Shown piece after piece: positions 1-11,698 of a stretch of DNA of 64,000 bases. This stretch comes from Bacteroidota bacterium (GTDB taxonomy: Bacteria; Bacteroidota; Bacteroidia; Chitinophagales; Chitinophagaceae): the NCBI GenBank assembly GCA_029558715.1, contig JAKQEA010000072.1:1-64000 (forward strand), given 5' to 3'. The notes under the pieces were generated by a model. That model was not told the origin of the DNA, searched no databases, and was given only the letters and a program-made list of their open reading frames with translations. A program made the position numbers and the translations under genes. Within the stretch, counting starts at the first letter, position 1. Each line of letters begins with the position of its first letter.

Positions 1-183
1 ATGAATATGGTTAGGCATGATAACATAACCGGAAATAAAATGTCCTTTCCCTTTCAGATGGTCAAACCAATTGTACACTGCGTCGTAACTATTGGTTATT
101 TGTATTAATGGCCTCCACTGATGGCAGGTGAAAGTGATAAAGTAAATTCCATCAGGTTCGGTTATCTGTCGCTTTACAGGCAT
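1..183 (-). CDS. REP-associated Y1 tyrosine transposase, N-terminal part (cut by window edge)
   Basis: The reverse strand is open from an ATG at 183 to the window edge with no stop, giving the first 61 residues. The protein reads MPVKRQITEPDGIYFITFTC, then a tryptophan-rich stretch, and ends in GYVIMPNHIH exactly at position 1. An early ITFTC strand followed by a VIMPNHIH strand is the signature of the Y1/HUH transposase fold, where the two histidines bind the metal. The catalytic tyrosine would lie beyond the window. In REP-associated (RAYT) members the protein recognises hairpin repeats near its own gene, and such hairpins lie directly upstream at 221-430. The family call is good. Whether the gene is intact cannot be seen. 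Confidence 0.8.
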   Translation of the reverse strand, partial: MPVKRQITEPDGIYFITFTCHQWRPLIQITNSYDAVYNWFDHLKGKGHFISGYVIMPNHIH

Positions 184-446
184 ACAACAATTTACAACTT
201 ATTTGTTTCTTCTCCGTAGTACGGCGAGTGCCACAGCCCCAACACACAAAGCCATCTGACACATCGCCTGCGAAATGTTGTGGACACTCGGCAAGGAAGA
301 AAGGTTAGTTGTCGCTTTATAGACATACGACAATTTACAACTTATTTCTTTTTCATAATACGGCGAGTGCACAAAACCCACTCCCAAAGGTATCTGACGC
401 ATCGCCTAGAAAGGGTGGCGGACACTCGGCAAGGAAGAAGGCTAAC
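167..446. repeat. Two tandem diverged copies of a bulged-hairpin (REP-like) repeat
   Basis: Two copies of a roughly 140-bp unit lie head to tail. Both open with tgtcgcttta (167 and 310), continue with acaatttacaactta, contain a ctgacRcatcgcc core (about 256 and 394) and end with gacactcggcaaggaaga (283 and 421). Within each copy the arm CGAGTG (225-230; 364-369) pairs with CACTCG (285-290; 423-428). In copy 1 the stem continues CCACA (231-235) with TGTGG (279-283) across a single bulged A at 284. The copies sit immediately upstream of the Y1 transposase start, the expected place for its REP-type targets. The 184-495 interval holds no other gene I can support. Confidence 0.65.
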
Positions 447-495
447 CGTGTTGTCTTTTTTATTTATGCAACCATGCTACGGAGAACGGGGCATT

Positions 496-1205
496 TTACA
501 AATCCTTATTTCGTTTATGATAAAAAACAGAATAAACCTTACTGATACAATATTTATTATTGGGTTTTTCTATATTAAAGTAAACACTAAATTCATCTAA
601 ATCTTTTTTATGTATTTCATTATTATATTTTTGTTTTATTTCGCCAGCTAAGATTGTAATATCCTTAGGCTCTGCATGCAAATTAATAGCAACCCTCATT
701 CCCTTTTCTTTTTCTTTGGCTGAGATTTTTGTATATGGTCTCGCCTCAACAATTTTATATATAGTGTTAGTATCTACCGGCATGTTTAAAGAATTATTAT
801 TAATGGAAGAATTTCTATCTAACATATACGTGGCCTCCATTTTACCTGTTGCGGTATCAAAATCTCTAACATAAAGCTTCTAATATTTGATATTAGCATT
901 TGCTGTGTCATTAAAAAAAATCTTACTTATTGTTTGTACAAAAGAATCTGCACTAACAATATCCGAAATATTATCACCATAGATGTGCATACGAATAGTA
1001 TCGCAATTTGTAGGAATAGTGTCGGGGTTCTTGTAATAGTTGTTGAAGTACGCATTTTCCAACTTTAGTGTACTTTTTATAGAGTCAATTACTTTTTGTG
1101 AACCATATTTCCCTTCGCAAGGGGCATAATAAGTATCTTGACCAATACAACCACCCAAAAGAAAAATTGTTCCAAATAAAAAACTTAAGGACTTTTTTTA
1201 AACAT
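496..1205 (-). pseudogene. Broken lipoprotein gene (frameshift in an A run plus internal TAG)
   Basis: Two open stretches on the minus strand (1158-880 and 840-496) are in the same frame. They are separated only by a TAG at 880-882 and 13 sense codons, so they read as one protein with an internal nonsense codon. At the 5' end, the frame starting at ATG 1205 meets a run of seven A (1192-1198 region) and then shifts out of frame. With one more A it would read MFKKKSLSFLFGTIFLLGGC, a textbook lipoprotein signal peptide with lipobox LLGGC, joined in frame to the rest. The restored product would be about 236 residues. No conserved domain is recognised. The gene is AT-rich and sits between hairpin repeats next to a transposase gene. 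Sequencing error in the A run is possible for the first lesion but not for the TAG. Confidence 0.7.
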
Positions 1206-1243
1206 TTCTTATTGCTGTTTGTACTTAAATAATTTTATACGTA

Positions 1244-1393
1244 TTAAAATGCTTTTTTAATACCCTTATTTGACCCAAAAATAATTTTAGGCCGGCTTAA
1301 AACATTATCCCCCACAGGTGTTAGTATAATATTTCCTGCACTGTTTTTTTTCCCTCCCGAGTCTTCTAAATTTACAACTTCCCAGCCGATGTC
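1244..1393 (-). pseudogene. Possible decayed C-terminal coding fragment
   Basis: A short minus-strand frame of 49 codons follows a TGA at 1394-1396 and ends at TAA 1244-1246. It reads like the end of a real protein (begins DIGWEVVNLEDSGG, ends SNKGIKKAF) rather than random sequence. No start codon precedes it in frame, and the adjoining sequence up to 1537 contains further short stop-interrupted frames. I interpret the 1209-1537 interval as remnants of a degraded gene plus the hairpin described separately. No family is recognised. This is a weak call based only on amino-acid composition. Confidence 0.25.
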
Positions 1394-1537: not shown

Positions 1538-3127
1538 TTACTTATTCCATTCTTCAGGTACCGGAATACCTGTATTAACAGTAAGTGTATCACTGAACCA
1601 TTTCCTTACCTTCTCCCCTGTTTCATCTTTAAAGGATTTATGATGATACTCATTTGTATCCGGTTCATACTGGTATTCATTTTTCCAGTCATTATAATGC
1701 AACGCCACCTGTTCAATAGCATAAAGGATATAATGAATTTCCTCATCCGTCATGACCGGGTGAATGGACATCCGTACCCAGCCTGGCTTGCAGGAAAGAT
1801 CGCCTTTGTGTATTTCCTCCAGTATTTCATAAGAATGCAGCTGATCTACATGCAGCAGCATATGGCCGTAGGTTCCCGCACAGGCACAGCCTCCTCTTGT
1901 CTGCACCCCGAATCTGTCATTCAGTAATTTGACGACAAGATTGAAATGGGCGCCTTTCAGTAAAAAAGAAATAACACCGAGGCGGTGCCTCGTTTCTCCC
2001 TCGAGTATTTCAATACCGGGTATACCGGGTAATTTGTCAAAAATTATTTTCAATAACTCTTCTTCCCGTTTCAGCATTTTCTCCACTCCCATTTCTTCTT
2101 TCAGCTTTACAGCCAATGCTGCTTTAATCCCCTGAAGGAAAGGTGGTGTACCGCCATCTTCCCGGTGCTCAATGTCATTAATGTATTCATGTTGTTTCCA
2201 TGGATTGGTATAGGTAACCGTACCCCCGCCAGGTTGATCGGGAATGATGTTCTTGTATAATTTTTTATGAAACACCAGCACTCCCGGTGTTCCCTGCCCG
2301 CCTAAGAATTTATGCGGAGAAAAAAAGACAGCATCCAGGTGCGCACCCTCTTCTTCCGGGTGCATATTTATAGATACATAAGGAGCTGAACAGGCAAAAT
2401 CAACAAAACAAAGTCCGTTGTGAATATGCACTAACTGAGCTACTTTATGGTAAGGGGTCTGGATGCCAGTTACATTGGAACAACCGGTAATAGCCGCAAT
2501 CTTATGTTGCCTGTCTTTATATTCAATCAGCAATTTCTCTAATGAAGACAAACATATGTTACCCGATTCGTCGTTTGGAATGATCTCTACATCAGCAATG
2601 GTCTCCAACCAGGAGGTCTGGTTAGAATGATGTTCCATATGTGACACAAAGACCACTGGCTTCAGATTTACATCCACATCAAGATAATTACTGAATAGTT
2701 CGTGGATTTTTAACACACTGTTCGTCAGTTCATGTGAGGCGGGTAATCTTCCCGGTTTTACATAATCCATGATGCGTTCGGGAATACGGAGCCCCAGCAA
2801 CCGTTGTAATTTATTTACGGCACCCGTCATACCACTACCAGCAAATATGAGAACATCATCAGGGCCGGCATTGATATGCTTTTTAATGATCTGTTTGGCC
2901 AGTTCATAGGCTTTGGTCATCGCAGTACCGGTCACTGTTGTTTCCGTATGAGTATTGCCAAGCAACGGCATGATCTCCCTGGCAAGGCGATCTTCGATAG
3001 GCTGATAAGCCCGGCCACTGGCTGTCCAGTCGGCATAAACCATTTTTTGTGAGCCATAAGGCGATTCAAAACTGGTGTCTATTCCAATGATATTCTCCCG
3101 GAAGGATTTAAAATAGTCTTGTAGCAA
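1538..3127 (-). CDS. Aminotransferase class V PLP-dependent enzyme (cysteine desulfurase/selenocysteine lyase-like)
   Basis: This is a 529-residue fold-type I PLP enzyme of the NifS/CsdA superfamily. Visible hallmarks are YADWTASGR near residue 30, the NTHTETT segment near 58, HMEHHSNQTSW (the histidine that stacks on PLP), the Schiff-base lysine in SPHKFLGGQGTPG near residue 270, and a late cysteine-bearing loop RGGCACAGTYG that in desulfurases carries the nucleophile. The substrate is not proven; such stand-alone members are larger than IscS/SufS (about 400 residues). The only start in frame is TTG at 3127, four codons after a stop; the N-terminal sequence fits the family, so TTG is accepted. 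It is a single gene with no partner scaffold gene next to it. Confidence 0.85.
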   Translation of the reverse strand: MLQDYFKSFRENIIGIDTSFESPYGSQKMVYADWTASGRAYQPIEDRLAREIMPLLGNTHTETTVTGTAMTKAYELAKQIIKKHINAGPDDVLIFAGSGMTGAVNKLQRLLGLRIPERIMDYVKPGRLPASHELTNSVLKIHELFSNYLDVDVNLKPVVFVSHMEHHSNQTSWLETIADVEIIPNDESGNICLSSLEKLLIEYKDRQHKIAAITGCSNVTGIQTPYHKVAQLVHIHNGLCFVDFACSAPYVSINMHPEEEGAHLDAVFFSPHKFLGGQGTPGVLVFHKKLYKNIIPDQPGGGTVTYTNPWKQHEYINDIEHREDGGTPPFLQGIKAALAVKLKEEMGVEKMLKREEELLKIIFDKLPGIPGIEILEGETRHRLGVISFLLKGAHFNLVVKLLNDRFGVQTRGGCACAGTYGHMLLHVDQLHSYEILEEIHKGDLSCKPGWVRMSIHPVMTDEEIHYILYAIEQVALHYNDWKNEYQYEPDTNEYHHKSFKDETGEKVRKWFSDTLTVNTGIPVPEEWNK

Positions 3128-3329: not shown

Positions 3330-3719
3330 ATGTCAGCGCCAAAATTGATAAAACCAACGGAAAGTGAGCTGGAAATTCTCCAGATCCTCTGGAACAAAGG
3401 AACAGCTACTGTAAGAGATGTACATGAAGAACTGGCCCAGACGAAGGATGTTGGCTATACCACTACCCTGAAACTGATGCAGATCATGAATGAAAAGGGA
3501 ATTGTGAAAAGAGATGATTCCATGCGTACCCATGTGTACCAGGCAGCGGTGAACAAGGAAAAAACACAAAAACATTTATTAGGAAAAATGATAGATAGTC
3601 TTTTTGGCGGCTCCCCAACACAACTGGTTATACAGGCATTGGGTGATGAGAGCCATAAGGCGAGTCCCGAGGAATTGGAAAAGATCCAGGCATTGCTGGA
3701 TAGTCTTAAAAAACAATAA
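3330..3719 (+). CDS. BlaI/MecI/CopY-family transcriptional repressor
   Basis: The 129-residue product has the family's usual length and layout: a winged helix in the first about 75 residues, starting KPTESELEILQILWNKG and containing the recognition-helix region DVGYTTTLKLMQIMNEKG, then a C-terminal helical dimerisation part. In characterised members a membrane-bound BlaR1-type protease senses a signal and causes cleavage of the repressor. Here the gene is followed after 2 bases by a BlaR1-like M56 protein, giving the standard two-gene operon. No beta-lactamase is adjacent, so the regulated genes are probably elsewhere; the signal is unknown. Confidence 0.9.
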   Translation: MSAPKLIKPTESELEILQILWNKGTATVRDVHEELAQTKDVGYTTTLKLMQIMNEKGIVKRDDSMRTHVYQAAVNKEKTQKHLLGKMIDSLFGGSPTQLVIQALGDESHKASPEELEKIQALLDSLKKQ

Positions 3720-3721
3720 CC

Positions 3722-5434
3722 ATGACCGGCATCCAGCTTCACTTACTGCAAGCCCTTGGTTGGGCAGTACTCAACAGTCTCTGGCAAATGGCGCTGCTCT
3801 GGGTTATTTACCAGGTGGTAACTGCTTTTCTGAAAAATACAAAGGCATCATACAAAAGTGTGCTGGCAACCTCCCTGCTTTTTGCAGGTTCTTTCTGGTT
3901 TATTTATACGTTCCTTATTGTTTATTCCGGTATTTCTGAAGGAGGTACGGCAGGTACTTTAATTTCATCGGGCCATGAAGTCCATAACTGGTTGCTGCAA
4001 AGCCTTCCTTTTATTTCCGGGGCTTACCTGTTATTACTGGTGCTTCCTGTTTTGCGTTTTATCCGCAACTATCGTTATGTGCAGGTGATAAGAAAATACG
4101 GACTCAGCAAGATCAATGTGAACTGGAGAATATTTGTCAGGAATGTGGCGGCCAGAATGGGTATTAAAAAAACAGTTCAGATATGGGTATCCGAGTTTGT
4201 GACCTCACCGGTTACCATAGGGTTTTTTAAACCAGTCATATTAGTTCCCCTGGCAGCAATCAATCACTTAACCCCACCACAACTGGAAGCCGTTCTGCTG
4301 CATGAACTGGCTCATATCAGGAGATATGATTACCTGATAAACCTGCTGATAAATTTTATTCAGACCATTCTTTATTTTAATCCTTTTGTAAAAGCCTTTG
4401 TGAAGATCGTAGAAAGAGAAAGAGAAAAAAGCTGTGATGAAATGGTACTGCAGTTCCAGTATGATTCACATGAATATGCTTCGGCCCTGCTTACCCTGGA
4501 AAAGACGAAGCACCTGCAAAAAATATTGATCGTTGCTGCCACGGGTAATAAAAATGATATAACGCATCGTATTGAAACTATCCTGGGTGTACAAAAAAAA
4601 CCGGCAATATCAGCCAATAAAATTGCAGGACTGGTTTCTGCTTTTATCTGCATCATTGCATTAAACCTTTTATTGCTATTGCCAGGAACACGGACTGATA
4701 AAAATAATACGGTAGCCTATACAGATTTCCCTTCTCCTTTTAACGTGGTCTATGATGAAGCTAAGGATAATGGTAAGGAAAGTGGCAATGAGATCAATCA
4801 ACCTCCTGTTAATAACATAGCAGCTAACAGTAGTGAAATATCTACAGCTTCTGCTGTATCTGCGGCGGCCGTGGCTAAAGAGAGGGCTGCTTTAATAAAT
4901 GAACAGGATATCCAGGACATTTCATCATACGCCTATAAACTGGCAGGCTTTGAAGAAAAAGATATACCTGAGCTAAAAAGATACCAGGAGCAACAGGTTA
5001 AAGAAGCACTGGAAGCATCCAGAAAAGTATTAGAAAGCACACAATGGAAAGTTGTAGAAAAAAGTATAGCAGATGCTTTTTCCGAGAAAGAAAAGCAGGA
5101 GTTGAAAAAAGTGTATGAAAAAGAGCTGAATAAGTTTGACTGGAACAAATGGGAAGTCAAACTAAAACAAGCCTATGAGAATATTGATTGGGAAAAGGTA
5201 AATAACCAGCTTTCTTATGCTATCAACCAGATCCGTATTGACAGTTTACAAAGAGTATATAATGATGTAGCCATAAAGCTAAATGAAATACAGAAAGAAC
5301 TAAATGCTAACCAGGTTACCAGTATCCCCGATACAGATATTACATTGAAAGCTGTGGAAGACAGGAAAAGGAAAGTTCAGCAAACCCTGAATACCCTGAA
5401 AGCGGTTCGCAATAAGAAGATCGTTCACCTCTGA
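3722..5434 (+). CDS. M56-family membrane metallopeptidase (BlaR1-like sensor)
   Basis: This 570-residue protein has hydrophobic segments near residues 8-30, 45-65 and 92-112. A zinc-protease motif HELAH lies at 194-198, with a downstream EREREKSCDE segment near 235 supplying the third ligand, and a final membrane span lies near 300-320. In BlaR1 the protease domain faces the cytoplasm and inactivates the partner repressor. The extracellular C-terminal part (about 322-570) is not a penicillin-binding domain. It is a long charged helical region with repeated tryptophan-centred units such as TQWKVVEK, FDWNKWEVKLKQAYENIDW. The sensing input is therefore probably not a beta-lactam. Translationally linked to the blaI-like gene. 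Confidence 0.88.
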   Translation: MTGIQLHLLQALGWAVLNSLWQMALLWVIYQVVTAFLKNTKASYKSVLATSLLFAGSFWFIYTFLIVYSGISEGGTAGTLISSGHEVHNWLLQSLPFISGAYLLLLVLPVLRFIRNYRYVQVIRKYGLSKINVNWRIFVRNVAARMGIKKTVQIWVSEFVTSPVTIGFFKPVILVPLAAINHLTPPQLEAVLLHELAHIRRYDYLINLLINFIQTILYFNPFVKAFVKIVEREREKSCDEMVLQFQYDSHEYASALLTLEKTKHLQKILIVAATGNKNDITHRIETILGVQKKPAISANKIAGLVSAFICIIALNLLLLLPGTRTDKNNTVAYTDFPSPFNVVYDEAKDNGKESGNEINQPPVNNIAANSSEISTASAVSAAAVAKERAALINEQDIQDISSYAYKLAGFEEKDIPELKRYQEQQVKEALEASRKVLESTQWKVVEKSIADAFSEKEKQELKKVYEKELNKFDWNKWEVKLKQAYENIDWEKVNNQLSYAINQIRIDSLQRVYNDVAIKLNEIQKELNANQVTSIPDTDITLKAVEDRKRKVQQTLNTLKAVRNKKIVHL

Positions 5435-5445
5435 TCCGTAGAAAT

Positions 5446-6495
5446 TTAATAGCACCTCGGGCAGGCCTCGCTGTATTTATTACCAAGCAGGAATCCAAAT
5501 ACCACTTCATGTGTTCCGCTGTTGAAGTCCCGGAGAATATTATTATTGCTTGACTTATCGTAAGCATAGCTGACATTGAATGTATTACTGACATTCAATC
5601 CAAGCATACCAGCAAAACCATCCTGGTGACGGTAACTACCCCCCAGCCACAATTGATCACGGTATTGCAGTTTCAGGTTTACCTCCGGCTGAAATTCTTT
5701 AAATGAACTTCCTTTGATATACTTCACCATTACAGAAGGAATTGCATTTACATCATCAGATAACAAAAAGCGGTATCCTGCTGTCAGGAATAAATGCGGT
5801 ACAAATCTTCCTTTGGTTAAAATAGAAGCATTATCATCTACAAAATTCAGTGTTTGCTGAAGTACGTTTTGTGCAGCAAAACCAATAAAATAATCCCGGG
5901 AGTACAGCCATAAACCAGCCGCCATCTGTGGCCTTATTTTAGTAAGCTGGCTGCTGAAAGCGGAACCAGTAGCCGGGTCACTCGGATCACCCGTACCTGA
6001 AAAATCATGTTTGCTTCCATCAATAGTAACTTTCGTAATACCGGCAGATAACCCTCCGGAGAGATTAGTGGTAGGGCTCAATCCGAGGTGATAGGCATAG
6101 GTGGCACTTGCTGTAAAAAAATTAAAACTTCCTGTTTTATCATTGATGATACTTAACCCTATTCCATGATGCGGCTCTGCGGCGGTGTAGCTCTCCCAAT
6201 AGGCTTTTCCTCTTGGGTTCTCGCCGGGAACTTTAAACGATGTGGAAGATGTTCTGTAATCATTCTTACCCAATGGACCATGAATGCTTAAATAAGTAGT
6301 TTTCGGTGCACCATTAATACCCACCCATTGGTCTCTCACAGCCATTTTGAGATCAGTATAGTTATCAATACCCGCAATAGCCGGGTTGATGATGAAAGGA
6401 TTCACCACATATTGTGTGTAATGAGGTCTCTGCTGGCTGATGGCCATCAGTCCGGTACACAATACAATCGCCGCTGTTATAAATATTCGTTTCAT
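5446..6495 (-). CDS. PorP/SprF-family type IX secretion outer membrane protein
   Basis: The 349-residue product starts with a signal peptide (MKRIFITAAIVLCTGLMAIS) and then RPHYTQYVVNPFIINPAIAG, the typical opening of the PorP/SprF family, with beta-barrel-like glycine/aromatic strands to the end. SprF-like members are needed for surface delivery of particular giant partner proteins bearing the gliding-motility C-terminal domain. The gene starts 4 bases after the stop of exactly such a protein (6500-11698), so the two form an operon and are very likely client and helper. Confidence 0.92.
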   Translation of the reverse strand: MKRIFITAAIVLCTGLMAISQQRPHYTQYVVNPFIINPAIAGIDNYTDLKMAVRDQWVGINGAPKTTYLSIHGPLGKNDYRTSSTSFKVPGENPRGKAYWESYTAAEPHHGIGLSIINDKTGSFNFFTASATYAYHLGLSPTTNLSGGLSAGITKVTIDGSKHDFSGTGDPSDPATGSAFSSQLTKIRPQMAAGLWLYSRDYFIGFAAQNVLQQTLNFVDDNASILTKGRFVPHLFLTAGYRFLLSDDVNAIPSVMVKYIKGSSFKEFQPEVNLKLQYRDQLWLGGSYRHQDGFAGMLGLNVSNTFNVSYAYDKSSNNNILRDFNSGTHEVVFGFLLGNKYSEACPRCY

Positions 6496-6499
6496 AGTA

Positions 6500-9400
6500 C
6501 TACCTGATTATATCTACATAACCGGTAACTTTCGACCGGCCATTCTTCGGATCAATCACATAATAATAAGTTCCCACAGGAACATCCTTACCATTTACCT
6601 TACCATCCCATGCCGTAGTATAACCTACAGAACGGAACACTAATTGTCCATACCGGTTGACAACATCTATAGTACAACCCGGATAGCTTTCCAGGTATGG
6701 TATCACCCATCTGTCATGCACTCCATCTCCATTCGGACTGAAAATATTCGGAATGATCGGGGCTTTCAGCACTTTTACAAACACATTATCACTGGCCGTA
6801 CAGCCTTGCGGTGTTGTAACGGTTAGTGTATAAGTTATATCATCGGTTGGAGAAGCAACCGGGAAAGAACTGGTTGGATCGTTCAGTCCTGTTGGCGGTG
6901 TCCATAAATATATCAGTGGAACACCTACATTCAATGCAGGGGTAAGAGTAACCTGGCCGCCTTCGAGTACAAACTTATCCGGGCCCGCATTTATTGCCGG
7001 TGCCGTAAAAATATCAAGGGTCTGTTCTTTATAGTTTGTACAGCCATTCGTTCCGGTATATGTATACCTGATATTGTATTGCCCCGCACCGATTGACGGG
7101 CTGAACAGACCCGTTGATGTTACACCAGTACCACTAAATACTCCTGCACCGGGAAGGCCATTTAGTAATTGTGCCTGTGTAATCTGGAATGTTGGCTTGT
7201 CTGTACAGGCAAAAGGTATCGGGTTGAATACAAGTGTCGGTGTGGCCAGCACTGTTATTGTCTGTATACTGGTGTTTACGCAGTTGATGCCGGAATAAGC
7301 CACATACCTTACCTGGAAGGTCCTTGTAAAGGGTGACCCGAATTCAGGATAAGTATGTGTATATGTTTCTCCGGGTAGTGGTGTATCATCCGTTGTTTTG
7401 ATGGTAGGATTATTCAGGTAATCCCAGAATATTTCCACTTTAACCACACTACCAAAATCAACTGTTGAAGCATCAGTAATAGTTACCGGCTGATTGCTGC
7501 ACAAAGAAGCGGGGTTTTGTACAGTAAACCCGGCAACAGGAATTGAACCATTAACAGTAAAGGTTTGCTGTACGGTGTCTTTACATCCATTATTGCTTGT
7601 AACGATCAATTGTGCCGTATAAGGTCCTACTACAGTATACCTGTGTGTTGGATTTTGTAATGTGGATGTGTTCGGGTTTCCTGCATTTGCATTCGGATCT
7701 CCGAAATTCCATTCCCATGCTACTATTGTTCCGCCTGCTACGGTACTGGTGTCGGTAAATGGTGCCATTGGGTCAGTTAAACAAACCTCAGGTGAAATGA
7801 AACCTGCTTTGGGTCTTGCATTGATAGTAACCTGGCTGGTATGAACAGCACTAATACAACCTTTATCTGTTGTAACCGTAAGAGTAACCGTATACGTTCC
7901 GGCAGCAGCAAATGTATGTGCCGGGTTCTGCAAAGTTGATGTGTTGGCAGCGCCACTACCTGGATCTCCAAAATTCCATTGCCAGTTAGTAAGAGCACCG
8001 GCATTGGCTACAGAGGCATCGGTAAAGCTGATTGTTCTTGTCTCACAACTTGGAACAGTGAAACTAAAGTCACTTGTTGGTAATGGATTTACTATCACAG
8101 TAGCTGAACCAGTCTGTACCTGGCTACAGGCTGTTCCGCTTCCTTCCAGTACACTCACCAGTGAATAGGTGAAAGTGCCGGCAGTTGTAGTAGGTACAGG
8201 CAAGGTAACAGAATTACCCGTCGTAGTTGTTATTGTTTGGTTCGGTCCGCCATTGATAGTGTAGGTAAATGTATATGGTGCAGTACCTGTATTTCCGGTA
8301 AATGTAATATTGGGAGAAGCAGTATTTAAGCAAACTTCTGCATCACCACTAATGGTGGCTGTTGGCAATGCATTCACTGTAACAACTACCGAACCTGTTT
8401 GTGCCTGGCTGCAAAGATTGGTACTTCCTTCCTGCACACTAAGAAGATTATAAGTGAACGTACCAGCAGTTGCAGTCGAAACGGGTACAGTTACAGAGTT
8501 ACCAACAGTAGTGGTAACAACCTGGTTAGGTCCGCCATTGATATTATATGTAAATGTATAAGGAGCTGTGCCTGTTGATCCGGTAAAAGTTATGTTGGGA
8601 GATGCTGAATTCAAACATACGGTAGTATTACCCGCAATAGTAGCTACGGGTAGTGCATTCACCGTCACTGCTACTGATCCGGTTTGTGATTGAATACAAC
8701 CAGTCGGGCTTCCTTCTTTTACATTTACCAGGCTATAGGTAAACGTACCTGTTACATTGGTTGGAACCGGTACTGTTACAGAATTACCAGCAGTAGTTGT
8801 AACAACCTGAGCAGGTCCGCCATTGATTGTATAAGTAAATGTATAAGGAGCCGTGCCATTTGAGCCGGTAAATGTAATATCAGGTGCTGCTGCATTCAAA
8901 CATACAGTCGCATTACCAGTGATAGTAGCTGTTGGTAATGGCTTTACCACTACTGTACGGGTAGCAAAATTATTTACCGTTTGGCATCCGGCAGCCGATG
9001 TCACATTAAGTGTAACTGTGTAAGTACCGGCAGCTGTATAAATATGTGTTGGGTTCTGCGTAGTTACAACAGGAGAACCATCTCCAAAGTTCCAGCTCCA
9101 TCCGGTAACTGTGCTGCCCGGAGCAGTGCTTACATCAGAAAATCCAATAAGACTTCCTACACAAACCTCCGGTAATGAGTTGAACGCAGCCTGCGGCTCT
9201 GCATATACAGTATTCAGGACCTGGTTTTTTGTATCAATACAACCATTATTGGAGATAACTGTCAGGCTTACATTAAACGGACCCGGAGCTGCATAGTTAT
9301 GCAGCGGATTTTGTACTGCTGAAGTTCCTGCATCACCAAAATCCCATGCCCAGCCTGTGATAGTATTACCACCACCAACTGTTGACAGGTCATTAAACTG

Positions 9401-11698
9401 CGCCGCCCCTGATGGCAAGCAGGCAACTGGTAAGTTAAAATCTGCCACCGGGTTGGGATGAATCGTTACGGGGAAACTGAACAAAATACTTTGGCAACCT
9501 GAGGAAGTAACAACACTCAAGGTTGCATTATATGTCCCCGCAGCAGTATATACGTGAGTTTCATTTGTGCTGCTATTTCTGATAACTACGGGTGAACCAT
9601 CACCAAAATCCCATGTCCATTGGGTAATTGCTCCTCCGCCTGTTACAGAAGATTGATCAGTAAATGTGATAACCTTTCCAACACAGAAAGGAGCAGCCGC
9701 AGTAAATAATGCTACAGGTGGATCGTTAATATTAACTACATGAGTAGTAGTATCTGCAATACAACCAATATCAGTTATCAATGAATACTTAACATTATAA
9801 GCACCCGGTGCAGCGTAGCTATGTGTGGGGTTATTAGCTGCGGAAGTATTGGCATCGCCAAAATTCCAGTGACGGCTTATGACAGCTCTTCCATCTGTAT
9901 TTGAGTTATCAGTAAAATTTACCGGGCTGTTTATACAGCCGTTCGTTGTAAAATTAAAGTCAGCTATTGGAGGATTGAATACCTGTACATCAAAATCAAT
10001 CTCCTGTGTACCACCACATCCATCTGGAGTTGGGTTTGTTGCCACTACCCGTATCGGATAGGTTCCTGTTGCTGTTATAACATAAGGAGTTGGTAATTGA
10101 TAAATATATAAAGTTTTACCATTGACAATCGTTGTGGATGTAGGGATCGGTGCAGGAATAGTGACATCAACAATTCCCATGGCATTTAAAGCAGGCCCGA
10201 ATATCCATTGTATGGAAGTGGGTTGATAAGGGAAAGTCATCGACAAATTAAACGGTGTGCCGCGACAGGTGGCTGGAAAATTAACAGTAGCCTGCTGATT
10301 TTGTACTGATATGTACTGGTAAATATCTTTAATATTTGTACCCGCATTATACCCATATGATTCTGCATTACCATACCCATAAGCGATTGCATTAAAGCCC
10401 GAGTCTGACTGAATAGTATGCTGACCTGCAGAAACAGATTGCACTAAATAGGAGAATCCCGGTTCCTGTGGATGTGGAATAAACAAACCCGGAGCAACGG
10501 GAGCACCATCTAATCTAAAAGAACTTATTGCTGTGCCGGTATTGGGAATTATAATATTAAAGTAATGCTGTAGAATATTAAAGTTGCCTGTTGCATTCCA
10601 TAACACCTTACTAATGTTTTGCTCAACAGGGCTAAGATAAATGACCTCAGGGTCACCGGGCTGGCCACCATTTCCGCAAGCACCCTGGGAAGTCAGGTAT
10701 TGAGCTACCATAATTGGTTTATCTGCTTCAATTCGTTTTGGCGTAGTTGACGCAGGTAGTTCATAATAAAAGCCTCCCTGGAGCGGTACACCTACCGGTC
10801 CTCCATTGAGTGTAACGACAGTTGCCGGATCGGAAACGCATATCCTGTAAATATTATTAGACTGATTGCCTCCCGTAGATACTGTAAGAAATTTCTTCCC
10901 CCACGCTGATTTCGGGAAGGCTTGTACCATATAGTTATCTGAAGAAGAAGAATTTCCATTACAGGTAATGCTTATCCTGCCACTTCCGGAAAACACTCCT
11001 ATCCTTTTACAACCCGCCCCGGTATTAATACTTTGAATCTTTGAACCAGTCAGATCTACACCCGAATTTCCGGAATATTGTCCCAATATATTATATATCT
11101 CTCCCTGCTGAAGATTTACCAAAAATGGAACACCAGCAGGATGGTTAATTGTTGCAGCGCTTGGGGTAATTTCTACGGTTGTAGTTCCTGTATCTGCAGC
11201 CACAACATAAAACCAGCAATTAGAATTAGCAGTATTAGAAATATTCGTGTAATTGACAGAATAATACTCCTTCCCCAAGGTCGTTGTCGGGAATAGAATT
11301 GAAGCGCCTGATACACTTGCGTTATAAATATGAGCATAAGCTACTATCGGCTTATCACTTGTAATATGTATTCCTTTTTTCTCTGGTGCTGTTGATTCAA
11401 CTCTAAGCCTTGCATCCTGAACACCTGTTTTTGGAATAGGTGCCGAGGTCAGGACTGTATTAGCAGCTACAAAATAGTTTTGAGTATACCCCAGACCGGG
11501 AATCGACACCGTGACATTTGAGTTCTGATCTGCAGCAAAGTATAAAACCATTTCCTGGGCGTTGTTACCATTCATGATCTGGTGATAACCATAACCCACC
11601 CAGAAATCCTTGCCTTTATTAGAAAAGTCTTGCGTATAGGAAATCCCGCCAGTAAAAATGGCAAGTAAAAGGGTACTTAGAAAGTGTAGTTTTCTCAT
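6500..11698 (-). CDS. Giant secreted PKD-repeat protein with IgGFc-binding-like N-terminus and gliding-motility C-terminal domain
   Basis: The protein has 1732 residues: a signal peptide (about 1-22), an IgGFc-binding-type region (about 25-470, opening FSNKGKDFWVGYG), then at least four PKD domains (W-x-FGD cores such as WNFGD, WDFGDGSP, WAWDFGDAG). Next come three near-identical 95-residue modules (about 920-1204), further PKD domains, and a C-terminal domain (about 1648-1732) starting IIPNIFSPNGDGVHDRW. That last domain is the CHU_C/gliding motility-associated signal used by the type IX secretion system (type B), so the product is exported and surface-attached or released. PKD arrays usually serve adhesion. 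Co-transcribed with its PorP/SprF helper downstream. Confidence 0.93.
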   Translation of the reverse strand: MRKLHFLSTLLLAIFTGGISYTQDFSNKGKDFWVGYGYHQIMNGNNAQEMVLYFAADQNSNVTVSIPGLGYTQNYFVAANTVLTSAPIPKTGVQDARLRVESTAPEKKGIHITSDKPIVAYAHIYNASVSGASILFPTTTLGKEYYSVNYTNISNTANSNCWFYVVAADTGTTTVEITPSAATINHPAGVPFLVNLQQGEIYNILGQYSGNSGVDLTGSKIQSINTGAGCKRIGVFSGSGRISITCNGNSSSSDNYMVQAFPKSAWGKKFLTVSTGGNQSNNIYRICVSDPATVVTLNGGPVGVPLQGGFYYELPASTTPKRIEADKPIMVAQYLTSQGACGNGGQPGDPEVIYLSPVEQNISKVLWNATGNFNILQHYFNIIIPNTGTAISSFRLDGAPVAPGLFIPHPQEPGFSYLVQSVSAGQHTIQSDSGFNAIAYGYGNAESYGYNAGTNIKDIYQYISVQNQQATVNFPATCRGTPFNLSMTFPYQPTSIQWIFGPALNAMGIVDVTIPAPIPTSTTIVNGKTLYIYQLPTPYVITATGTYPIRVVATNPTPDGCGGTQEIDFDVQVFNPPIADFNFTTNGCINSPVNFTDNSNTDGRAVISRHWNFGDANTSAANNPTHSYAAPGAYNVKYSLITDIGCIADTTTHVVNINDPPVALFTAAAPFCVGKVITFTDQSSVTGGGAITQWTWDFGDGSPVVIRNSSTNETHVYTAAGTYNATLSVVTSSGCQSILFSFPVTIHPNPVADFNLPVACLPSGAAQFNDLSTVGGGNTITGWAWDFGDAGTSAVQNPLHNYAAPGPFNVSLTVISNNGCIDTKNQVLNTVYAEPQAAFNSLPEVCVGSLIGFSDVSTAPGSTVTGWSWNFGDGSPVVTTQNPTHIYTAAGTYTVTLNVTSAAGCQTVNNFATRTVVVKPLPTATITGNATVCLNAAAPDITFTGSNGTAPYTFTYTINGGPAQVVTTTAGNSVTVPVPTNVTGTFTYSLVNVKEGSPTGCIQSQTGSVAVTVNALPVATIAGNTTVCLNSASPNITFTGSTGTAPYTFTYNINGGPNQVVTTTVGNSVTVPVSTATAGTFTYNLLSVQEGSTNLCSQAQTGSVVVTVNALPTATISGDAEVCLNTASPNITFTGNTGTAPYTFTYTINGGPNQTITTTTGNSVTLPVPTTTAGTFTYSLVSVLEGSGTACSQVQTGSATVIVNPLPTSDFSFTVPSCETRTISFTDASVANAGALTNWQWNFGDPGSGAANTSTLQNPAHTFAAAGTYTVTLTVTTDKGCISAVHTSQVTINARPKAGFISPEVCLTDPMAPFTDTSTVAGGTIVAWEWNFGDPNANAGNPNTSTLQNPTHRYTVVGPYTAQLIVTSNNGCKDTVQQTFTVNGSIPVAGFTVQNPASLCSNQPVTITDASTVDFGSVVKVEIFWDYLNNPTIKTTDDTPLPGETYTHTYPEFGSPFTRTFQVRYVAYSGINCVNTSIQTITVLATPTLVFNPIPFACTDKPTFQITQAQLLNGLPGAGVFSGTGVTSTGLFSPSIGAGQYNIRYTYTGTNGCTNYKEQTLDIFTAPAINAGPDKFVLEGGQVTLTPALNVGVPLIYLWTPPTGLNDPTSSFPVASPTDDITYTLTVTTPQGCTASDNVFVKVLKAPIIPNIFSPNGDGVHDRWVIPYLESYPGCTIDVVNRYGQLVFRSVGYTTAWDGKVNGKDVPVGTYYYVIDPKNGRSKVTGYVDIIR
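8086..8940 (-). repeat. Three exact-length 285-bp tandem coding repeats inside the PKD protein
   Basis: Equivalent landmarks recur at 8086, 8371, 8656 and the boundary 8941, giving a period of exactly 285 bp (95 codons) three times. Each module contains TVCLN or EVCLN, an F-TG-GTAPYTFTYxINGGP core, NSVTVPV or NSVTLPV, and an EGS...GSV/GSA end. The modules differ by scattered substitutions but no length changes. They are unlike the neighbouring PKD domains and resemble the short secreted-adhesin repeats of other type IX clients. Confidence 0.9.

Follow-up and report, generated by a model that had tools for sequence, protein, structure and literature searches.

The window, i.e., the whole stretch of 64,000 nucleotides considered here, opens on the minus strand with the 5' part of a RAYT gene (positions 1-183), which encodes a REP-type Y1 transposase. 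Only the first 61 codons are present, running from an ATG at position 183 to position 1, and the terminal residues VIMPNHIH carry the HUH motif PNHIH at the end of the fragment. This minus-strand frame, with its start and its end at the left edge, had been described in an earlier note made from the sequence alone, and all of it is present in the translation. Because base 1 of the window is also base 1 of a contig of 79,663 bp (C169), the frame is broken off by the contig itself. The source genome (G000), that of an uncultured Bacteroidota bacterium, is a 4.02-Mb assembly in 235 contigs. Here, a profile search at E 1e-25 matched only the 61-codon piece, and the remainder of the gene is therefore outside the assembly at this threshold; a second copy of the RAYT gene was not found in G000 either.

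The gene type was established from the translation and from profile searches. The NCBIfam model REP_Tyr_transpos (NF047646) matched the fragment at E 2e-9 with 37.5 bits; the cut-off of 80 is missed owing to the short length of the fragment (61 residues), for which Pfam gave nothing significant. The two closest full-length relatives, of 208 and 197 residues, are 89% and 80% identical to the window protein over the fragment and carry the motifs PNH[IF]H and KL[ND]YMHDNP. They score 74 and 77.8 bits with the NCBIfam model (E 1e-20 to 7e-22), just below the cut-off, and this is by far the best family, in line with the REP-type assignment made in the earlier note. The nearest relative of the window gene (locus L045) belongs to an uncultured Chitinophagaceae genome obtained from a metagenome. 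The residues H59xH61 and Y143xH145xN147P148 are invariant in all six aligned relatives, and the window fragment displays the HUH part alone; the relatives have WE at W122, a tyrosine motif of the form Y[MLI]H[DNR]NP and the motif NH[LIV]H, except for one with NHFH. In a tree of 20 Y1 proteins, the seven of the window type are grouped with 99/99 support, apart from the 13 others from G000 and related genomes. A structure model of modest quality (pLDDT 64.9) ranked TnpA_REP (PDB 4er8) first in the PDB, with TM scores of 0.26/0.32 and other Y1 transposases at ranks 2-19, none of them at E 0.001 or better, and a profile search of the PDB by sequence also placed 4er8 first, at E 0.14; these two results are supportive of a TnpA_REP identity rather than proof of it.

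In a classical member of the IS200/IS605 insertion sequences, two hairpins would likewise enclose a small Y1 transposase and the whole would move as a unit; the relatives described below resemble such an element in having hairpins at both ends, a small Y1 enzyme and, in a minority of genomes, multi-copy units. Yet the protein of the window type is nearer to RAYTs: the Pfam model Y1_Tnp gives only 20.2 and 17.9 bits with the two full-length relatives, below its cut-off of 23, and the tyrosine motif is YxHxNP, not the YxxxQ that the available text of PMC6006769 gives for TnpA_IS200, which makes this classification very improbable. Beside the genes that were inspected, no tnpB was seen. One classical IS200-like transposase gene is found elsewhere in G000 (contig C168, locus L011, 720-1061). 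It is the only Y1_Tnp match over the cut-off in that genome, and repeats of the type AAAGCCCAGGGCAAGAC come after it.

Upstream of the gene start lies a tandem repeat in which 142 aligned bases are 79% identical (blastn, E about 1e-28). The earlier note had seen here two tandem copies of a bulged hairpin (221-430); the repetition stands, but the hairpins are weak when taken alone and the repeat register exceeds the hairpin, with units at 160-302 and 303-446. In each unit, a hairpin stretch is combined with the first codons of a transposase gene (MPVKRQIT... in unit 1 and MSIKRQLT in unit 2). In unit 1, the 5' REP and leader (184-302, minus strand) have stem arms at 225-235 and 279-290 and, at 295-301, an outer foot that reads TTCTTCC on the minus strand; nhmmer model A includes this copy. 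The eight codons of unit 2 (303-326, minus strand), recognized from the repeat alignment as a relic of another RAYT gene, stop at the 5' end of unit 1. They belong to a second 5' REP and leader (327-446, minus strand) with weak stem arms at 364-369 and 423-428 and an outer foot at 433-439. End to end, units 1 and 2 are 75% identical, whereas unit 1 is 88% identical to a copy on contig C200, which retains 15 recognizable codons. Because unit 1 is nearer to the C200 copy, unit 2 is an old relative rather than the product of a recent local duplication, and we read it as what remains of an older 5' end, with unit 1 having inserted later, either within it or next to it. The earlier reading had missed that the gene starts within the repeat and that unit 2 is the relic of another copy, as well as the seeming mobility of whole units in relatives.

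A separate REP, of the 3' type (GCCGAGTC), is located on the plus strand at 1373-1434 with its foot CTTCCCA facing left, and was matched at E 1.3e-12 (nhmmer, about 112 kb searched) by a model built without that copy. Between the REP units lies a lipoprotein-like gene (496-1158, minus strand), which appears to be a single gene split by a stop into the open reading frames 880-1158 and 496-840, and both feet face this gene. Beyond the REP, at 1538-3127, 3330-5434 and 5446-11698, the genes are by eye class V aminotransferase-like, a BlaI/BlaR-like pair, PorP/SprF-like and a large repeat protein, i.e., ordinary for Bacteroidota.

Further copies of the repeat, for which the earlier note had proposed a search of the genome, are present in G000 on contigs C200, C220 (three copies) and C17, i.e., they are not confined to the window. 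Contigs C200 and C220 start with identical 141 bases that contain another repeat copy. We infer an assembly-graph fork at the repeat, which means that copy numbers in G000 may be underestimates. Simple patterns were of little use in this genome: a perfect-stem pattern gave no match in G000 vs two in a reversed control, and a flank pattern gave eight, six of them in known copies, vs seven in the reversed control. Contig C220 (L008) also carries, at 605-765 and 2130-2300, a 171-bp repeat with 94% identity between copies. In this repeat, truncated 5' REP pieces adjoin a common stretch that contains the palindrome TAGGATTTTCCTA, and 40 bases of it recur on C200 (L009, 161-200). It may constitute a repeat family of its own or else a fused derivative.

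Taken singly, the window hairpins are statistically weak. Folding of the window repeats as DNA gave z values of -1.09 and -0.85 on the plus strand and -0.44 and -0.54 on the minus strand, among 60 shuffles the best stem was equalled four times for unit 1 (12/11 nt, bulged) and 45 times for unit 2 (6 bp), and the best stem per locus was not beyond shuffles for most of 24 stretches. Such values are what would be found if the hairpins had another role, e.g., as a terminator or a regulatory RNA, and stood beside the gene by chance. This explanation is scarcely credible, given that lineage-specific, covarying arms are common to both flanks of the gene and that Rfam gave no match within positions 1-1500 of the window. 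It is by comparison with relatives that the hairpins become convincing. With arms chosen by hand, which favours pairing, 54 of 56 cells are paired among seven distinct arm pairs compared between lineages, changes on both sides are found in six of eight pairs (a level reached by 3 of 500 shuffles), and the covariation score is reached by none of 500 shuffles and is lower in every slid register.

The relatives carry a hairpin downstream of the gene as well as the motif KL[ND]YMHDNP. In one of them (L012, 1057-1683 of G014:C166), the RAYT frame runs into the downstream hairpin, from which its last codons and stop are derived. In 27 of 43 loci, a word of at least 12 bases is common to the two sides of the gene, compared with 52 of 1806 mismatched pairs; these 43 loci were kept out of 59 located, after removal of 12 in which the first 200 gene bases were already present and four with short flanks. 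In the lineage closest to the window (L045, L046, L047 and L048) the flanks share only words of 7-8 bases, because the 5' arms (GGCGAGTG) and the 3' arms (GCCGAGTC) differ. Of 40 loci, 27 have an N5-GT[CG] palindrome upstream, 34 have one downstream and 24 have both, vs 22 of 800 when the upstream flanks are shuffled. Three loci of the closest lineage were scored, and two of them are without one of the two palindromes. The outer foot contains TCC in 42 of 61 hairpins and CCC in 29, compared with 3 and 2, respectively, for the inner flank. This TCC foot occupies the position of GT[AG]G in canonical REPs, and the canonical foot itself was not found at these hairpins. The arm covariation, the shared flank words and the TCC foot support the proposal of the earlier note that the window repeats are the cognate REPs of the RAYT, and the start of the window would lie inside such a unit, as had been suggested.

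In some relatives, the hairpin-gene-hairpin structure seems to be mobile as one unit, with near-identical copies of the gene and its two hairpins at different places in the same genome. Genome G058 harbors two complete 733-bp units and a truncated one on three contigs, with pairwise identities of 96.8-98.6% (about 97-99%) over 656-795 bp. Their left flanks differ and the bases preceding the 5' ends vary, and two of the units remain similar beyond their right ends, through a neighbouring REP. Among eight further genomes with at least two matches, similar copies are found in three: in G173 they are 90.7% identical over 731 bp, end at the feet and lie on different contigs, in G411 they are 96.4% identical over 637 bp, both being cut at the two ends of one contig, and in G098 they are 85% identical over 671 bp. 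The other five (G229, G270, G407, G201 and G150) contain only diverged, short or unalignable matches. A 768-bp unit, extending from TTCCTTCGCAGG to GGGAAGAA, is 98.2% identical between L046 and L047 with no similarity adjoining either end. These two loci also share a 2.2-kb block (94.5%) further to the left, so the two insertions are not certainly independent; the units share a genomic neighbourhood, and a single insertion followed by rearrangement may be the origin of both.

Shortened derivatives accompany the complete units. An internally deleted unit with both ends kept adjoins a small gene pair, which we take to be ParD/ParE-like, in G060 (L116, contig C9, 1500-2428). Two further internally deleted copies with both ends were seen by inspection (L028 and L015), and pieces anchored at the 5' end extend over 212 bases in L051 and, twice, over 233 bases in L046. 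G058 also holds seven distinct REP pairs of 203-205 bp and one 157-bp derivative, and the pattern CCCAGCAACGTCT occurs there 37 times exactly and 46 times with at most one mismatch, vs once in the reversed control. Such inverted REP pairs are comparable to REPINs and BIMEs as non-autonomous elements, except that in G058 complete copies of the gene unit are present alongside them. At L046 (4672-5830), a stretch of about 520 bp, composed of a 5' REP, 47 transposase codons and a third piece, is found twice in tandem before a full unit; the third piece presumably resembles a BRO-N type gene.

The above observations must be weighed against the picture of an ordinary, immobile REPtron, i.e., a domesticated RAYT that spreads only REPs, with extra gene copies generated by segmental duplication, REP-REP recombination or horizontal transfer. 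At E 1e-25, matches were found in 53 of 396 sampled Chitinophagales genomes and 32 of 164 genera (a count that includes G000 itself and G058, and in which those scoring about 91-112 bits probably represent partial or neighbouring types), and 37 of the 53 have a single match, as would be the case for an immobile gene; the five multi-match genomes with only diverged or unalignable copies and the REPs situated at rearranged junctions (G059/G060) point the same way. It is also the literature picture of RAYTs, in that the available text of PMC2817692, PMC6006769 and PMC8266576 contains no sign of mobility of a RAYT gene unit. Nevertheless, we consider this explanation rather unlikely, because near-identical units ending at the feet are found on different contigs in G058 and G173, and because internally deleted units keep both ends. 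The RAYT trait of an immobile, usually single-copy gene, as given in the papers, does not describe G058, G173 and G411. Among plasmids, no match was found for the fragment and five distant relatives (26-33% identity) for the full protein; no relative was found among phages, and among viral contigs 57 pattern matches included no relative.

A different arrangement would be a cassette system, in which REPs flank small passenger genes that are moved in trans by the enzyme. Small genes with REPs on either side do occur in the window (446-1373), in L012 and on C220, and in G060 the presumed ParD/ParE-like pair stands next to the deleted unit. The sequence found beyond this gene pair in G060 is directly adjoined, in G059, by a 52-base REP piece. 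A cassette is quite improbable, however. Because both feet in the window face the lipoprotein-like gene, this gene lies between two units rather than inside one, and the G059/G060 locus is rearranged, with no clean presence/absence and no clean empty site for the deleted unit found in G059.

Two junctions, which belong to a single, partly duplicated array in L046, give information on where such units land. At one of these, a new 5' end follows GTGAGACT, while the orthologous locus in L047 has an uninterrupted REP tail; at the other, a 5' end follows GTGGCGCT within the 3' arm of a 5'-type REP. The pattern suggested by these junctions is a lead, not a rule. According to the available text of PMC8266576, CT is the cleavage site of the TnpA_REP enzymes in groups 2 and 3, and one of these enzymes also cleaves at CA.

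The nearest described relatives are found in subclass 2.6 of TnpA_REP (PMC6006769, Quentin 2018), a Bacteroidetes subclass that the same paper equates with RAYT group 5 of Bertels 2017. The available text of that paper describes it as having atypical structures without GT[AG]G, while still being classed as TnpA_REP, with the key motifs NH[LIV]H, WQ and YIH[QN]NP and a mean identity of 40.7% between intragenomic copies. The window type is likewise a Bacteroidota RAYT with NH[LIV]H and YxHxNP-like motifs, atypical flanking hairpins without GT[AG]G and copies elsewhere in the genome. It differs in having WE for WQ (W122 being, by our own reading, the W motif of the paper) and Y[MLI]H[DNR]NP for YIH[QN]NP, and is for this reason not filed as 2.6; it also differs in its near-identical multi-copy units. 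With E. coli TnpA_REP (4er8) it shares a REP-type HUH-Y1 enzyme and REPs both adjoining the gene and elsewhere, but its foot is TCC/CCC, not GTAG, and the whole unit is multi-copy in some genomes. The nearest prior hint of mobility is from Chryseobacterium, where, in the available text of PMC11194056, the RayT gene is located at differing distances from abeS. Among titles and abstract openings, no report of RAYT unit mobility was found, and no paper was found that combines repetitive extragenic palindromic sequences with Chitinophaga. The comparison of loci suggests, beyond earlier knowledge, that the gene and its two hairpins form a bounded, multi-copy unit in some relatives.

From the above discussion, the window likely opens within the 5' end of an element with the order foot (TTCC or TTCCC)-hairpin-RAYT gene-hairpin-foot (GGAA). 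The TnpA_REP and IS200/IS605 enzymes are HUH-Y1 proteins that bind single-stranded hairpins and cleave DNA through a tyrosine-DNA bond, and IS200/IS605 elements move via a single-strand circular intermediate that is inserted 3' of a fixed tetranucleotide. By analogy with these enzymes, the window-type protein would recognize its own hairpins in single-stranded form, cleave next to them with formation of a tyrosine-DNA bond and join the strand to another site. The same reaction could mobilize the whole unit, shortened units or REP pairs; movement of the whole unit is possible because, in this lineage, the two hairpins sit just outside the gene with their feet outward. Here, the reaction chemistry, the cut sites and the role of the enzyme as the maker of the copies are what we infer, and the window's own unit would, judging from its relatives, be complete and mobile.

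A more tentative proposal is that these elements are living intermediates between IS200/IS605 and domesticated REPtrons. In such an intermediate, the RAYT may move its own gene, bounded by TTCCC feet, and also spread REPs and REP pairs, and units may insert behind a CT within the 3' arm of REPs already in place, thereby building tandem 5'-anchored relics like that at 160-446 of the window. In practical terms, the TCC foot together with the GTC core is a simple mark for Bacteroidota REPs that are missed by GT[AG]G searches. Among bacterial transposases, RAYTs are a standard case of domestication, and one ground for this view is that movement of the gene itself has not been observed. Precisely bounded, near-identical copies within this subfamily (53 of 396 sampled genomes of the order, a few probably with neighbouring types) would make the step from a mobile element to a domesticated enzyme testable in living relatives.
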